36,217 nucleotides of DNA from a virus: positions 1-36,217 of IMG/VR virus record IMGVR_UViG_3300033149_000546; one strand, given 5' to 3'. The notes beneath the pieces are model-generated. The model made no database searches. It was not told the origin of the DNA and saw only the letters and a list, made by a program, of their open reading frames with translations. Shown one piece after another: positions 1 through 36,217 of the stretch (position 1 is the stretch's first letter; each line of letters starts with the position of its first letter). The position numbers and the translations under genes were made by a program.

Positions 1-75
1 AGCCGCGCATGCCTCGCACAAACTCTGGTTTACAAACCAAATGTCAACCAGTAAACAACGTGCTATGCTTAATGA
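1..75. other. Non-coding left end of window, upstream of terminase
   Basis: No gene is visible in these 75 bases. A short perfect inverted repeat (TGGTTT at 26-31, AAACCA at 34-39, two-base spacer) lies about 40 bases before the first start codon. It could be a small operator or part of a packaging region, but nothing here proves either. TTTACA (29-34) followed 17 bases later by TAAACA (52-57) is at best a weak promoter-like pair. I see no attC-like core and no clear host sequence. Confidence 0.3.
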
Positions 76-690
76 ATGGAATTAATTACAAAAGCCGATT
101 TCGCCCGTCGTGCAGGTGTTAGCCGTCAAATGGTCGGTAAGATGTGCAAACCAGATGGGCGACTGCACGATTCAATATCAGCCGGTAAGATCGACATCGA
201 TTCGCAGCCGGTGCGCGAGTACTCGAATGATAAGAGTGTGGATTTATCGAACCCGCGTATCGATGCACGCCGAACACCCGCACCGCCACCACATGAAACG
301 TCGATGCCGTCCGCCGATACACCTGTTGAAAATTTCGAAGCGATGACATTGGTCGAATTATGTGATGTGTTCGGAACAGACGAACGATTCAAACAATGGT
401 TGATAGGTCGTAAAGCGATCGTATCGATAAAATCATCTGAATTGAAAATTGACGAAGCACGCGGTCGATTGATTAGTCGTAAACTAGTTGAGGTTGGCGT
501 GATTGACACATTCAATTCAGCACACCTTCGACTTCTTAAAGACGGTGCGAAATCAATCGCCGCAGGCGTGGTGTCAAAACATAGTGCCGGTGCCGAATTA
601 AGTGAAATCGAGGCGTTCGTGTCTGACATATTGGGTTCGTTCATTCGTCCGATCAAAGGAAAAGTTGTTCGAGTTTTAAAGAATGTCTGA
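76..690 (+). CDS. Terminase small subunit-like DNA-packaging protein
   Basis: This 204-aa protein directly precedes and overlaps (8 bases) the large terminase, the usual place for the small subunit that recognises phage DNA and hands it to the motor. The N-terminus (about residues 5-30, TKADFARRAGVSRQMVGKM) reads as a helix-turn-helix of the Nu1/MerR-like kind. It is followed by a low-complexity Pro-rich linker (about 60-85) and a mostly helical C-terminal half, probably for oligomerisation. The ATG at 76 has no strong Shine-Dalgarno sequence. An ATG at 72 is in another frame. The role comes from the HTH and the position; sequence identity to a named family is not certain. Confidence 0.75.
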   Translation: MELITKADFARRAGVSRQMVGKMCKPDGRLHDSISAGKIDIDSQPVREYSNDKSVDLSNPRIDARRTPAPPPHETSMPSADTPVENFEAMTLVELCDVFGTDERFKQWLIGRKAIVSIKSSELKIDEARGRLISRKLVEVGVIDTFNSAHLRLLKDGAKSIAAGVVSKHSAGAELSEIEAFVSDILGSFIRPIKGKVVRVLKNV

Positions 691-31420: not shown

Positions 31421-33178
31421 ATGCAGATGATCCAACGACCATTAGCAGTCGCAATACAGCGAATATTATTACGTCCTTATCAATCAAAGGGTGTACAGGA
31501 AATATACACCGCGTGGAATGCCGGCAATGACAATGTACTTGCTGTATTCCCCACCGGTTCAGGTAAAACCGTTTTATTTTCTGACATCATTCACGACCAC
31601 AAGGGTGCGAGTTGTGCAATTGCACATCGACAAGAATTAGTCAGCCAAATATCACTTGCGTTGGCACGTGACAAAGTTCGACACCGTATCATCGGACCAA
31701 AATCGGTAATCAAATTGTGTGTGAATCTGCACATGCGCGAAGTAGGTGTATCATATTACGACCCATCATCACAGTGTGCGGTTGCGGGTGTCGATACGCT
31801 GGTTAAACGGGGTAAAGAATTAAAAAATTGGTTAAATTCAGTCACGTTATGGGTGCAGGATGAAGCACACCACGTACTGAAAGCCAATAAATGGGGAACA
31901 GCAGCGGCAATGTTTCCCAATGCTAAAGGCCTTGGTGTAACCGCCACACCATTGCGTGCTGACGGTAAGGGTCTCGGTCGACATGTCGATGGGTTATTCG
32001 ACATCATGGTCGTTGGTCCAGGTATGCGCGATTTGATTAACGCCGGATATCTCACAGATTATCGAATATTTGCGCCACCATCTGATTTAGATTTATCAAC
32101 TGTTCCAGTTAGTCAAACGACGGGTGATTTCAATCCGAATAAATTAAAAACCGCCGTTCGTAAATCCCATATCATGGGTGATGTTGTCACGCATTATTTA
32201 CGGATTGCACCCGGTAAACTTGGTGTGACATTTGCGACTGATGTGGAAACCGCGACCGATATCGCTGCAGAATTTAACCGGCGTGGTGTACCGGCTGCAG
32301 TTGTTAGCGCGAAAACACCTGATTCAGAACGTATTGCCATATTACGACGTTTTAAAAATCGTGAATTATTGCAATTAGTCAATGTGGACTTATTCGGGGA
32401 AGGTTTCGACTTGCCAGCGATCGAAGTGGTCAGCATGGCACGCCCCACCCAATCATACGCATTATTTGTTCAGCAATTCGGGCGTGCATTACGATTGATG
32501 ATCGATCCGTCATTATATCCGTATTGGGACCAATTTACAGATGGTCAACGTCGTGACCACATTGCAGCCAGTTCGAAACCGCACGCAATTATCATTGATC
32601 ATGTTGGTAATGTTGATCGTCATAATTTGCCCGATGCGCCTCGTGTATGGACATTAGACCGACGTGAAAAGCGTGCGAAATCAGATGTATCGGATGTGAT
32701 ACCAACGAAAGCATGTCCGAAATGTACAGGGGTTTATGAACGAATATATGCATTTTGCCCATATTGTGGGTTCAAACCTGTGGTATTACCGCGTTCGGGA
32801 CCAAATCAGGTCGATGGTGATTTAATTGAATTGGATGTTGATGTACTCGCAGCAATGCGCGGCGAAATTGAAAAAGTCGATATGAGTCAGGACGATTTCA
32901 GGCAAGACATGGTTTCAAGGTATGTACCTGAAATCGGTCAGCGTGCAGGCATGAAACGACATCTTGAACGCCAGGAAGCACAAACGGCATTACGTGCGTC
33001 AATTGCATGGTGGGCGGGATATCAGCGCGCACAGGGTAATGCAGACAGTGAGAGTTATCGACGATTTTATTTTAAATTTGGAATGGATGTATTGACAGCG
33101 CAAACATTGAAAACCACGGATGCGCTGAAATTGGCTGATAATGTAAATAGGGAGTTATCAAAATATGGGTATTATTGA
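31421..33178 (+). CDS. Superfamily II DEAH-box helicase
   Basis: A 585-aa protein. Motif Q/I region LRPYQSKGVQEIY, Walker A FPTGSGKT (43-50), DEAH in VQDEAHHV (147-150), motif III TATPLRADG (174-182), and motif VI-like FVQQFGRALR in the second RecA domain. A C-terminal CPKC...CPYCG zinc ribbon follows (two CxxC pairs near 430-450). It resembles SSL2/RadD-like phage helicases and probably opens DNA in replication or recombination. The last 14 bases overlap the 71-aa gene. Shine-Dalgarno before ATG 31421 is weak. Confidence 0.92.
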   Translation: MQMIQRPLAVAIQRILLRPYQSKGVQEIYTAWNAGNDNVLAVFPTGSGKTVLFSDIIHDHKGASCAIAHRQELVSQISLALARDKVRHRIIGPKSVIKLCVNLHMREVGVSYYDPSSQCAVAGVDTLVKRGKELKNWLNSVTLWVQDEAHHVLKANKWGTAAAMFPNAKGLGVTATPLRADGKGLGRHVDGLFDIMVVGPGMRDLINAGYLTDYRIFAPPSDLDLSTVPVSQTTGDFNPNKLKTAVRKSHIMGDVVTHYLRIAPGKLGVTFATDVETATDIAAEFNRRGVPAAVVSAKTPDSERIAILRRFKNRELLQLVNVDLFGEGFDLPAIEVVSMARPTQSYALFVQQFGRALRLMIDPSLYPYWDQFTDGQRRDHIAASSKPHAIIIDHVGNVDRHNLPDAPRVWTLDRREKRAKSDVSDVIPTKACPKCTGVYERIYAFCPYCGFKPVVLPRSGPNQVDGDLIELDVDVLAAMRGEIEKVDMSQDDFRQDMVSRYVPEIGQRAGMKRHLERQEAQTALRASIAWWAGYQRAQGNADSESYRRFYFKFGMDVLTAQTLKTTDALKLADNVNRELSKYGYY

Positions 33179-33380
33179 TGCACAACGATTAGGTGATACG
33201 ATGCTTGATCTACAGATGAAATTGCAAAGGATGTTATCAAAACGATATTGCATCCGCGAAACATATCGTAATCGGTCATTGACTATGGGTGACAAATGGT
33301 ACACGGCACACGAATGGATGTTTTACTATGATGATGGGTCAACAGAAATGGTGACGCGTAGGGAATTCACAAATGTATAA
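33165..33380 (+). CDS. Small unrecognised protein at the phage/cassette junction
   Basis: A 71-aa basic protein (MLDLQMKLQRMLSKRYCIRE, then WYTAHEWMFYYDDGSTEMV); no family recognised. It overlaps the helicase stop by 14 bases, which is phage-operon behaviour. Yet its TAA lies inside the R'' core GTATAAC of the first attC site, exactly as in the cassette genes downstream. Only 10 bases before its ATG is GTTATCA (33154-33160), close to but not the exact complement (GTTATAC) expected of a cassette start. It is either the last phage gene or an old first cassette fused to the phage. Confidence 0.7.
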   Translation: MGIIDAQRLGDTMLDLQMKLQRMLSKRYCIRETYRNRSLTMGDKWYTAHEWMFYYDDGSTEMVTRREFTNV

Positions 33381-33433
33381 CCTTTAACGTAAGCGGCACG
33401 CTTTTCGTGTCCGACTTTACGTGAATGTTATAT
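33375..33433 (+). repeat. attC site 1 (59 bp)
   Basis: R'' GTATAAC (33375-33381) and R' GTTATAT (33427-33433). Inner arms ACGTAAG and CTTTACGT pair with one unpaired base, and CGGCACG pairs with CGTGTCCG with one more unpaired base. Such extrahelical bases are what the integron integrase reads in folded attC. The length is that of a classic 59-base element. Confidence 0.88.
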
Positions 33434-33478
33434 TTGCCGTCTTTTATCAAGATATTTGATATTAATTGATAAAAAGCC

Positions 33479-33506
33479 TTGTTTATATCAAAATGTTTGT
33501 TACAAT
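33479..33506 (+). promoter_or_regulatory. Promoter inside cassette C1
   Basis: TTGTTT (33479-33484), 16-base spacer, TACAAT (33501-33506), 36 bases before ATG 33543, which has GGAG eight bases upstream. The cassette can thus express its genes without an integron promoter. The AT-rich stretch before it adds weight. Confidence 0.6.
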
Positions 33507-33542
33507 AAGTACATAGACATTAACAAAGACGGAGAAAACATT

Positions 33543-33671
33543 ATGACTAACACAGAAATAGAATTAGCGAAATTGGTTCAAATGATATCTGACAAAACAG
33601 GACTTTCATATGATGAAGCTATGGAGCAAGCAATGACTTTCATGCGGGATATGGTAGATACAAGGGCATAA
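33543..33671 (+). CDS. Small cassette protein (42 aa), unknown
   Basis: 42 aa from ATG 33543 (GGAG upstream); a longer in-frame TTG start at 33456 would read through the promoter and is rejected. The sequence is acidic and helical (LVQMISDKTGLSYDEAMEQA), reminiscent of small helix-turn adaptor-like proteins. It is followed after one base by the HTH gene, so the two form a pair. No family is recognised; a toxin-antitoxin or regulatory pair is only a guess. Confidence 0.65.
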   Translation: MTNTEIELAKLVQMISDKTGLSYDEAMEQAMTFMRDMVDTRA

Positions 33672-33672
33672 A

Positions 33673-33840
33673 ATGACAGCATCAGAAAAAGCGAAAAAAG
33701 CAGGACTGAAAAACCTTAAGGAACTGGCAGAAATTAGCGGCGAATCAACACAGAATTTAAACAACTGGTTTAACAATTACCCGTTACGTTTTGAGTTGAT
33801 TTTAAAGGGTGCTGTCATCAAGAAATTAGAGGCAATATAA
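33673..33840 (+). CDS. Cro-like small HTH protein (cassette C1)
   Basis: A 55-aa gene: MTASEKAKKAGLKNLKELAE, then ISGESTQNLNNWFNNYPLRF. The layout is a compact helix-turn-helix like small phage-type regulators whose second helix reads SxQxLxNWxxNxP. Its TAA is inside the R'' core of attC 2. It starts two bases after the preceding stop. It could control its own cassette promoter; the target is unknown. Confidence 0.7.
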   Translation: MTASEKAKKAGLKNLKELAEISGESTQNLNNWFNNYPLRFELILKGAVIKKLEAI

Positions 33841-33958
33841 CGTTGCCGGTAACTGGCTGGCTAACTAGAAATTAATTGGACGGGAAATATTATGGCACAA
33901 ACTGAAAAACAAAACGAACACGCTGTAAGCCAGTCCGCGTTGACCGGTCTTGTTATAT
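33835..33958 (+). repeat. attC site 2 (124 bp)
   Basis: R'' ATATAAC (33835-33841), R' GTTATAT (33952-33958). CCGGTAAC on the left pairs with GTTGACCGG on the right, with one extra base. Further in, CTGGCTAAC matches GTAAGCCAG with one mismatch. It is a long VCR-length site. Confidence 0.82.
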
Positions 33959-34356
33959 TGCCGGATTCGCTGACTGCTGAAAACGGGGCGAAGCATCTTC
34001 TATCCGCTGAGTTTATCGAAAGCGATACACATACTTGTATTCATTGCATTGGTGACGCGGAAGGCGACGACTGTGAAGTGTGCGACGGGTCAGGCGAAGT
34101 CGTTTACAGCCTGCCTGTGCAATGGACAACCATTAAAGATATTTACGCCATGATTGTGAAAAATATGGCGAAGGAAATTCATCCTATAGAAAATAGCGCC
34201 AAGATAATCGATGAATTCACCTCATGCATCCCTGAACACATTGAAGGAATGCCAGCTATTTCAAGTAACGGTGTTACACGTTCAGAGATGGAATGGAAGC
34301 ATATAGCAATTGGGATGGCTAAAGAAATTGAATTACTGAGAAGTAAGGCAATATAA
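33892..34356 (+). CDS. Cassette C2 protein with paired CxxC
   Basis: 154 aa from ATG 33892, which lies inside attC 2. The part belonging to the mobile cassette begins at 33953, so a TTG at 33958 (LPDSLTAENGAKHLLSAEF) may be the natural start. I recognise LTAENGAKxLLxxEF and QWTTIKDIYA from a small family common in cassettes and phages. CIHC and CEVC at about residues 48-66 form a zinc-finger-like knuckle. The function is unknown. The stop TAA is in the R'' core of attC 3. Confidence 0.75.
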   Translation: MAQTEKQNEHAVSQSALTGLVILPDSLTAENGAKHLLSAEFIESDTHTCIHCIGDAEGDDCEVCDGSGEVVYSLPVQWTTIKDIYAMIVKNMAKEIHPIENSAKIIDEFTSCIPEHIEGMPAISSNGVTRSEMEWKHIAIGMAKEIELLRSKAI

Positions 34357-34473
34357 CGTCACAAATAAACGGCAGGTCAACACAAAAAATGCCAATGAAG
34401 ATTAACTTTAACACAACTAAAAGCTCTAACAAACAACGCTAAGGCCTGTCCGCTTTGATTTGTTTTGTTAGGC
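34351..34473 (+). repeat. attC site 3 (123 bp)
   Basis: R'' ATATAAC (34351-34357) and R' GTTAGGC (34467-34473). The arms around CACAAAT...CGG...CAGG and CCTGTCCGCTTTGATTTG fold onto each other with extrahelical bases. The right half, containing TAACAAACAACGC and GTTAGGC, resembles attC sites of marine gammaproteobacteria. Confidence 0.85.
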
Positions 34474-34489
34474 AGTGCATAGGAAAGAC

Positions 34490-35194
34490 ATGAAAGATAT
34501 TGTGATTAGTTTGTTTGATTTAACTGGCGTAATGGTGCAGCCGTGGATTGATGCCGGTTACACTGCTTACATTGTTGATATACAGCACAAAACAGGTATT
34601 TACCAAGACGCTAAACAAGAACGCCTTTTCCGTGTTGGCTGTGATCTTCGTCATGGGTGGTTACCGCCAGTTGAAACAATTGGGCGAATTGCTTTTGTTG
34701 CTGCATTTCCTGAATGTACGAATGTTGCTGTTAGTGGAGCCGCACATTTTAAAAAGAAAGGGTCGCGGGCTTTAAGTTTATCCTTAGATTTGTTCGCTGC
34801 CAGCAAAGAGATTGGAGAGTGGAGCCGGGCCCCATACATGATTGAAAACCCTGTCAGCACTTTTTCGACTTATTGCGGAAAGCCAGACCATGTATTTAAT
34901 CCGTTTGATTATGGTGGATATTTACCCGAAAACGACAGACACCCCCGATGGCCGGATTATATAGCCCCACGGGATGCCTACCCAAAGAAAACATGCTTAT
35001 GGTGTGGGGGGGGGGGGGGGTTCGTAATGCCAATTAAGAATGAAGTTATACCAGAGCCAGGTTATTCGACACAACATAAAAAACTTGGCGGTAAAAGTCA
35101 AAAAACAAAGAATATTAGAAGTGAAACGCCGCGTGGATTTTCTCGGGCGGTATTTGAAAGTAACGGCCAGTACCTAAATGAAAGTGCTGCCTAA
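34490..35194 (+). CDS. Cytosine methyltransferase-like cassette protein
   Basis: 234 aa from ATG 34490 (AGGAAA four bases upstream); an in-frame GTG at 34475 sits nearly at the core and is less likely. Motif I-like SLFDLTGVMVQPW (7-19), motif II-like VDIQH (29-33), FPECTNVAVSGA (73-84) in place of the PPC loop, and MIENPVS (117-123) in place of ENV resemble the C5-cytosine methyltransferase order. The rest (YGGYLPENDRHPRWPDYIAP) belongs to a phage/cassette family. Residues 173-177 are five Gly from a run of 15 G. Activity is not certain. Confidence 0.78.
   Translation: MKDIVISLFDLTGVMVQPWIDAGYTAYIVDIQHKTGIYQDAKQERLFRVGCDLRHGWLPPVETIGRIAFVAAFPECTNVAVSGAAHFKKKGSRALSLSLDLFAASKEIGEWSRAPYMIENPVSTFSTYCGKPDHVFNPFDYGGYLPENDRHPRWPDYIAPRDAYPKKTCLWCGGGGGFVMPIKNEVIPEPGYSTQHKKLGGKSQKTKNIRSETPRGFSRAVFESNGQYLNESAA
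35006..35020 (+). repeat. Poly-G tract of 15 in a coding region
   Basis: Fifteen consecutive G encode Gly173-177 of the methyltransferase-like protein. The frame is intact as given. A change of one or two bases would replace the last 57 residues. Confidence 0.95.
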
Positions 35195-35273
35195 CGTCTT
35201 AAATAATGCGCCGCACTCGGCGTTGAGCATTTGAACCAAGCTTAGGCGGTCGCGTTGATTTAACGTGTTATAC
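35189..35273 (+). repeat. attC site 4 (85 bp)
   Basis: R'' GCCTAAC (35189-35195) and R' GTTATAC (35267-35273). TTAAATAATGCG on the left faces CGCGTTGATTTAA on the right with an extrahelical base. It is nearly identical to attC 5 except in the apical loop. Confidence 0.9.
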
Positions 35274-35300
35274 GTCGATTATTAAATGAGGAGTTAACTA

Positions 35301-35603
35301 ATGGCGACAGAGTATGAAGTAGGCGAACACAAAATGGATGGTGGCGAGCTGGATACATTTTACAAATTATTTTGGTTTGGTAGTCAAGATGATGGCGATT
35401 TGCCAGCAAAAAGCGGAATGGCTGGATTAATACAAAAAGGGCTTGCTGTAAAAAACTATACCTTACCGAAAATCATACACTATGAAAAGCCTAATGGATT
35501 GTCGGTCACCGGGTTTGAATTAGCACTAAAATATTATCATTCTGAATATATAGAAATGCGCAACAGGCTTAGAGAAATTGAAAGCACCAGCCAAGACGTA
35601 TAA
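35301..35603 (+). CDS. Unrecognised cassette C4 protein (100 aa)
   Basis: A 100-aa protein starting at ATG 35301 after AGGAG. Composition is mixed alpha/beta (FYKLFWFGSQDDGDLPAKSG, LIQKGLAVKNYTLP, VTGFELALKYYHSEYIEM). The layout of a short acidic start and a helix-loop-helix end resembles small regulator or interaction proteins; no family is named. The TAA stop lies in the R'' core of attC 5, standard for cassettes. Confidence 0.75.
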   Translation: MATEYEVGEHKMDGGELDTFYKLFWFGSQDDGDLPAKSGMAGLIQKGLAVKNYTLPKIIHYEKPNGLSVTGFELALKYYHSEYIEMRNRLREIESTSQDV

Positions 35604-35682
35604 CGTCTTAAATAATGCGCCGCACTCGATAGCGGCTATTTGAACCAAGCTTAGGCGGTCGCGTTGATTTAACGTGTTAGAT
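35598..35682 (+). repeat. attC site 5 (85 bp)
   Basis: R'' GTATAAC (35598-35604), R' GTTAGAT (35676-35682). Its arms are the same as in attC 4; only about a dozen bases in the loop differ. It marks the end of cassette C4. Confidence 0.9.
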
Positions 35683-35704
35683 TCCGACCTACGGAGAAAG
35701 AAAA

Positions 35705-36178
35705 GTGAATATAATTTTTTTAGACATAGATGGTGTTTTGAATTATCAAAATGTACCAAAAAGCGAAAAGGTAGTACGCCCTTACGGTGAGGTAAGCATT
35801 AAATGCGTGGCTCTACTGAATAAGCTAACATCCGAATCAAAAGCTAAAATCGTAGTTTCGTCAACATGGCGAAAAGATGGAACGCAATACGGGACTATCG
35901 GCGAGCGTCTTTTGGATATGGGCGTAACTGGTGAGGTGATAGATTCTACGCCTGACATACATGCGCCATCGTCGTTTCGTGGCAATGAAATATACGAATG
36001 GATTAGAGATAACGATGATTTGCTAGGTTGCAAACACTGCGATTACAAAGACTACGTTATTTTAGACGATGATAGTGACATGCTTTTGTGGCAAGCAAAT
36101 AACTTTATTGAAGTTGATCGCTGGACAGGTATCACCCCTCACACGGTCTTTAAAGCTAAGAAAATTTTAGGAATCTAA
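35705..36178 (+). CDS. HAD-fold phosphatase-like protein (SAK-type), cassette C5
   Basis: 157 aa from GTG 35705 (GGAG upstream). Motif I is NIIFLDIDGVLNYQN (D7 and D9, DxDGV). Motif II is KIVVSSTWRKDG (Ser/Thr), and the last motif is VILDDDSDML. The pattern matches the HAD domain of Swiss Army Knife RNA-repair-type proteins. It may remove phosphate from a nucleic-acid or small substrate; the exact substrate is unknown. The stop TAA is in the R'' core ATCTAAC. Confidence 0.85.
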   Translation: MNIIFLDIDGVLNYQNVPKSEKVVRPYGEVSIKCVALLNKLTSESKAKIVVSSTWRKDGTQYGTIGERLLDMGVTGEVIDSTPDIHAPSSFRGNEIYEWIRDNDDLLGCKHCDYKDYVILDDDSDMLLWQANNFIEVDRWTGITPHTVFKAKKILGI

Positions 36179-36217
36179 CTAAGGCTAGACGGAAACAGTT
36201 CACGTTATGACGTGAAC
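36173..36217 (+). repeat. attC site 6, left part (truncated by window end)
   Basis: R'' ATCTAAC (36173-36179) complements GTTAGAT at the start of cassette C5. Downstream, GTTCACGT/ACGTGAAC (36198-36217) forms a hairpin that would be the apical arm. The right half is outside the window. Confidence 0.7.

Follow-up and report, generated by a model that had tools for sequence, protein, structure and literature searches.

A cluster of integron gene cassettes, very probably carried by a tailed phage of the SppYZU01 type

Clusters of attC sites without an integrase (CALINs) were previously described in phages by Qi et al. (2023), who reported 17 of them among 10,705 phage genomes (PMC9892861). Several of these were located in virulent phages, some carried methyltransferase genes, and five of the six phage attC sites tested were recombined by IntI1 (PMC9892861). 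In this report, we describe an array of integron cassettes in a viral contig of 36,217 nucleotides (IMG/VR record IMGVR_UViG_3300033149_000546), the whole of which is called the window. Like the CALINs of phages TJE1, P12002L, and PH101 (PMC9892861), this locus is an attC array without an integrase in a tailed phage, and a methyltransferase is found among its cargo. Unlike those CALINs, it comes from another, metagenomic phage group, in which arrays recur, are longer and well ordered (5 and 8 cassettes), and have edges at R''.

With sedentary chromosomal integrons and bacterial CALINs, the locus shares the attC anatomy, the matched cores, the stop codon in R'', and the single short gene or gene pair per cassette. 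It differs from them in its location on a phage genome, its heterogeneous attC types, and its several phage-type genes. Cassettes can also enter genomes by insertion at attG sites, a published route (Loot et al. 2024, as cited in PMC12444791 and PMC12901181). The present locus resembles this route in that its cassettes lie at a G|TT core outside an attI site; it differs in that the insertion would have been into a phage genome and in that the edge which can be seen is the R'' side. An earlier note on this DNA had called cassette arrays in tailed phages rare, which is a fair description, but the phenomenon itself is already published (PMC9892861) and the window is a good further example rather than a new phenomenon. 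What is new here is the recurrence of arrays in one phage group, the three phage/array edges at R'', and the modification genes among the cargo.

The cassettes and their attC sites

Between positions 33375 and 36217, the window contains six attC sites, five complete and one truncated, which delimit five cassettes (Table 1). The sites were called by folding, arm pairing, and core matching rather than with the published attC covariance model; a covariance model built from class 1 attC sites was dropped because the variable loops aligned poorly. In the folds of all five complete sites R'' pairs with R' and L'' with L', and the 3' arm carries unpaired extra bases, which is a hallmark of attC sites. 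The R'' box of attC1 can be read in two ways, as GTATAAC (33375-33381) or as CTTTAAC (33381-33387). In all five cassettes, the opening and closing cores are exact reverse complements over seven bases, the pairs for cassettes 1 to 5 being GTTATAT/ATATAAC, GTTATAT/ATATAAC, GTTAGGC/GCCTAAC, GTTATAC/GTATAAC, and GTTAGAT/ATCTAAC. All six reading frames that end in an R'' box do so with TAA (at 33380, 33840, 34356, 35194, 35603, and 36178).

Table 1. Positions of the phage genes, attC sites, and cassettes in the window
Feature	Positions	Strand	Remarks
Tailed-phage part	76..33178	.	tblastn against SppYZU01 and Pfam
terL	683-2680		gene of phage part
Helicase	31421-33178		gene of phage part
gp39 homolog	33165..33380	+	full length; TAA stop within attC1 R'' box
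attC1	33375..33433	+	59 bp; phage/array junction; R' GTTATAT 33427-33433
Cassette 1	33427..33841	+	ORFs 33543-33671 (42 aa) and 33673-33840 (55 aa)
attC2	33835..33958	+	fold and detector
Cassette 2	33952..34357	+	ORF ending 34356
attC3	34351..34473	+	fold and detector
Cassette 3	34467..35195	+	phage-type C5 DNA methyltransferase 34490-35194
attC4	35189..35273	+	fold and detector
Cassette 4	35267..35604	+	ORF 35301-35603, phrog_4365 (E=3.5e-16)
attC5	35598..35682	+	arms same as attC4; fold and detector
Cassette 5	35676..36179	+	HAD_SAK_2 hydrolase 35705-36178, phrog_1818
attC6	36173..36217	+	incomplete, ends with contig

A detector that combines arm pairing with core matching returned a chain of 5 with a score of 84.2 for the window. 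In 1,500 simulated sequences of the same length (first-order Markov), the longest chain was 4, which occurred only once, and the top score among chains of at least 3 was 49.2. The detector found chains of 3 and 4 in the class 1 integrons L099 and L100 and two attC sites in the published phage TJE1, all of which served as positive controls. A further chain of 3, in L013, was attributed to chance. The pattern of attC4 and attC5 had zero matches in the viral or genome contigs. The array of the window is not a product of chance, and its attC anatomy confirms it as a true array of integron cassettes. These sites, cores, and stops bear out the earlier note, which had proposed five complete sites and one partial site, five cassettes with exactly matched cores, six TAA stops in R'', and integron recombination rather than random repeats. 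The array is a CALIN, since no tyrosine recombinase is present; a complete integron has intI and attI, and the incomplete 36-kb record contains no match to PF00589. Phage genes are found to the left of the array, and its right side runs off the contig.

At least three of the cassettes in the window encode phage-family proteins, which is a plain count rather than an enrichment. The methyltransferase of cassette 3 matches phrog_757 (E=3e-67) and 1,479 phage records, and is 76% identical to L189; its relatives are ordinary phage genes and not cassettes. The hydrolase of cassette 5 is 44-45% identical to the gene at the array edge of another phage contig (G030). The 55-aa ORF of cassette 1 has a weak match to the phage regulator family phrog_409, and a homolog of the cassette 2 ORF is carried by a related phage (G006). 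No relatives of the cassette 4 protein were found in the viral or genome contigs. A PADLOC search returned no defence gene except for a marginal match to the methyltransferase. Some of the cassettes probably serve the phage, and the methyltransferase would most plausibly act against restriction.

Within the methyltransferase gene there is a run of 15 G residues (35006-35020), which could serve phase variation or stem from a slip in sequencing; as given, the reading frame is uninterrupted, and the relatives have WTGNGF or WTGGGF at this place. The longest ORF of cassette 2 begins with an ATG at 33892 in the loop of attC2, and past the core the first start codon is a TTG at 33958. Cassette ORFs often open back through the preceding attC loop in this way (33892-33958 in the window, 13454 in L075, and 14357 in L125), with one start codon in the loop and another after the core. 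Promoter-like sites were no commoner in the promoter scan than expected by chance. Since the array has the orientation of the helicase operon and promoter-like sites occur only at chance level, read-through is likely to be the source of cassette transcription.

The phage genome and its junction with the array

The record is linear and ends inside the cassette array. Its phage part encodes TerS, TerL, the portal, head and tail proteins, a DNA polymerase (-), a DUF2800 exonuclease (-), and a helicase, with Pfam matches to the GpA terminase, DUF2800, and the ResIII helicase. Of the 35 genes from gp4 to gp38 of Shewanella phage SppYZU01, 27 have tblastn matches here with their order kept, and the identities of TerL and the helicase are 67% and 72%, respectively. 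The phage part is thus of the SppYZU01 type, with collinear packaging, structural, and replication genes. The phage that hosts the array is probably a tailed phage of this type with a virulent lifestyle. Tyrosine recombinases were absent from 15 of the 16 other records tested, including the complete genomes of SppYZU01 and Scuro; the sole exception among the 14 other contigs tested was G030, which is of a different lineage. The contigs of many relatives stop approximately 0.9-1.0 kb ahead of terL, and for this reason the left end of the window (1-76) may be close to the natural end of the genome. We also considered whether the entire phage might be a single giant cassette and dropped this possibility; no GTTATAC was found close to the left end, and the window contains about as many copies of it as expected by chance.

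The earlier note had the array continuing directly from the helicase operon. It does continue from this operon, but a small conserved gene, gp39, lies between the helicase and the first attC site. This 71-aa gene is 44% identical to gp39 of L040, the two having a common C-terminus, and a pattern search found no relative of it encoded in the viral contigs. In seven relatives, the stop codon of gp39 overlaps the ATG of the next gene. The array begins at precisely this gp39/gp40 overlap point, where SppYZU01 has approximately 7 kb (gp40-gp49) for which tblastn found no collinear match in the record. At the start of the array, the remnant ATGTATAACCTT resembles the first codons of the next gene, which is suggestive only. 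The left edge consists of a complete attC site directly after phage sequence.

Arrays in related phages

The scan for arrays covered loci and the whole or nearly whole contigs of relatives, 2.38 Mb in total including the controls, and arrays were found in three related phages. In G023 (L075; helicase 57%), four core-matched cassettes are located, in inverted orientation, after the primase gene and two small genes. In G031 (L023; TerL 61%), three inverted cassettes lie directly past terL. Both of these arrays end at R'', exactly so in G023, and in both the last cassette is without a further attC site; the visible array edges of the window, G023, and G031 therefore all fall at R''. The array of G021 (L125; helicase 54%, with another type of terminase) contains eight core-matched cassettes; with an HNH gene on one side and terS/terL on the other, it is flanked by phage genes at both ends. 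Among the products of this array are a phage methyltransferase (phrog_954, E=7.5e-72) and a Mom-like modification protein (phrog_1384, E=3e-37). The left edge of this array cuts through an attC site and the right edge is not a clean core; given these edges, the R'' rule is not universal.

Several core-matched cassettes were also found in G030, the phage contig of the other lineage, with a HAD_SAK_2 gene at the array edge. This gene is not claimed as a cassette, since its cores agree at only 6 of 7 bases. A tyrosine recombinase (Arm-DNA-bind_5, Phage_int_SAM_5) is encoded near this array (L183 1449-2597), and it was rejected as an IntI because it is of the phage type. In G031, a cassette (L023 3461-3964) encodes an HD-domain phosphohydrolase (phrog_990), of which the related phage contig G028 has a 56% homolog. 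The comparison of relatives revealed neither a pair of phages between which an array had turned over nor a close relative whose site was empty. The suggestion of the earlier note that the cassettes could be a renewable cargo swapped by a host integrase is plausible.

Origin and meaning of the array

It is highly probable that the array is a CALIN within the genome of an SppYZU01-type tailed phage, itself probably virulent, and that the contig breaks inside the array. The contig terminates in the array with no phage gene past it, and of the three related arrays two likewise extend past the contig end, as would be seen if the assembly had falsely joined a phage contig to a bacterial chromosomal integron. 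However, no direct repeat of at least 13 bases from the junction, which could have driven a false join, occurs elsewhere in the window, the junction coincides with the gp39/gp40 overlap and a recombination core, and the cargo is of the phage type. A chimera is unlikely because three phages that share the helicase or terminase carry arrays, and that of G021 is internal; the concern that the earlier note had raised about the assembly is thereby largely answered. A prophage beside or inside a chromosomal integron, with cassettes that are host DNA, has a precedent in Vibrio anguillarum phage Va_90-11-286_p16, which is known at integron attC sites (PMC9892861). Such an arrangement is very unlikely here, since no integrase was found in the window, SppYZU01, Scuro, or 13 of the 14 other contigs tested (the exception being G030), the junction falls midway through the replication operon, at a point where the adjoining genes of the relatives overlap, and the G021 array is again internal.

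With regard to the mechanism, a host integron would be the source of the cassettes. Its IntI may have placed them in the phage by recombination between an attC site and an attG-like core, a G|TT on the opposite strand where gp39 and gp40 overlap. The array would have been cut at R'' and joined to the G|TT site on the other strand of the phage. The action of a host IntI is the simplest inference because the phage carries no integrase, and the complete attC site at the left edge of the window, together with the ends of the G023 and G031 arrays at R'', is what would be expected if an array were cut at R''. An intact attC1 at this edge would, however, require recombination of the top strand, and recombination of attC sites is approximately a thousandfold more efficient with the bottom strand than with the top (PMC8946536). 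The array could instead have been brought in when the phage recombined, homologously or illegitimately, with a host integron and without the action of IntI on the phage. The cassettes carry homologs of phage genes, which could supply the homology, and the left edge in G021 sits within an attC site. The three visible edges at R'' cores are more simply explained by integrase cleavage, and we give this route an appreciable chance that falls short of even; it is a serious rival because of the inefficiency of the top strand and the misfit of the G021 edges.

Returning to the action of a host integrase, we offer a broader proposal only tentatively, as it is rather doubtful. Phages of this group may repeatedly acquire cassettes via the host integrase at attG-like cores, using a phage-adapted pool (methyltransferases, Mom-like modification proteins, and nucleotide hydrolases), so that the exchange would supply counter-restriction genes. 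Integrons store anti-phage defences. Cassette-carrying phages with modification genes among their cargo would mean that both sides are served by one exchange system, and the cassettes would gain a particle-borne route between hosts. The four arrays in phages that share replication or packaging genes provide a concrete set for the study of insertion sites, edges, and turnover.
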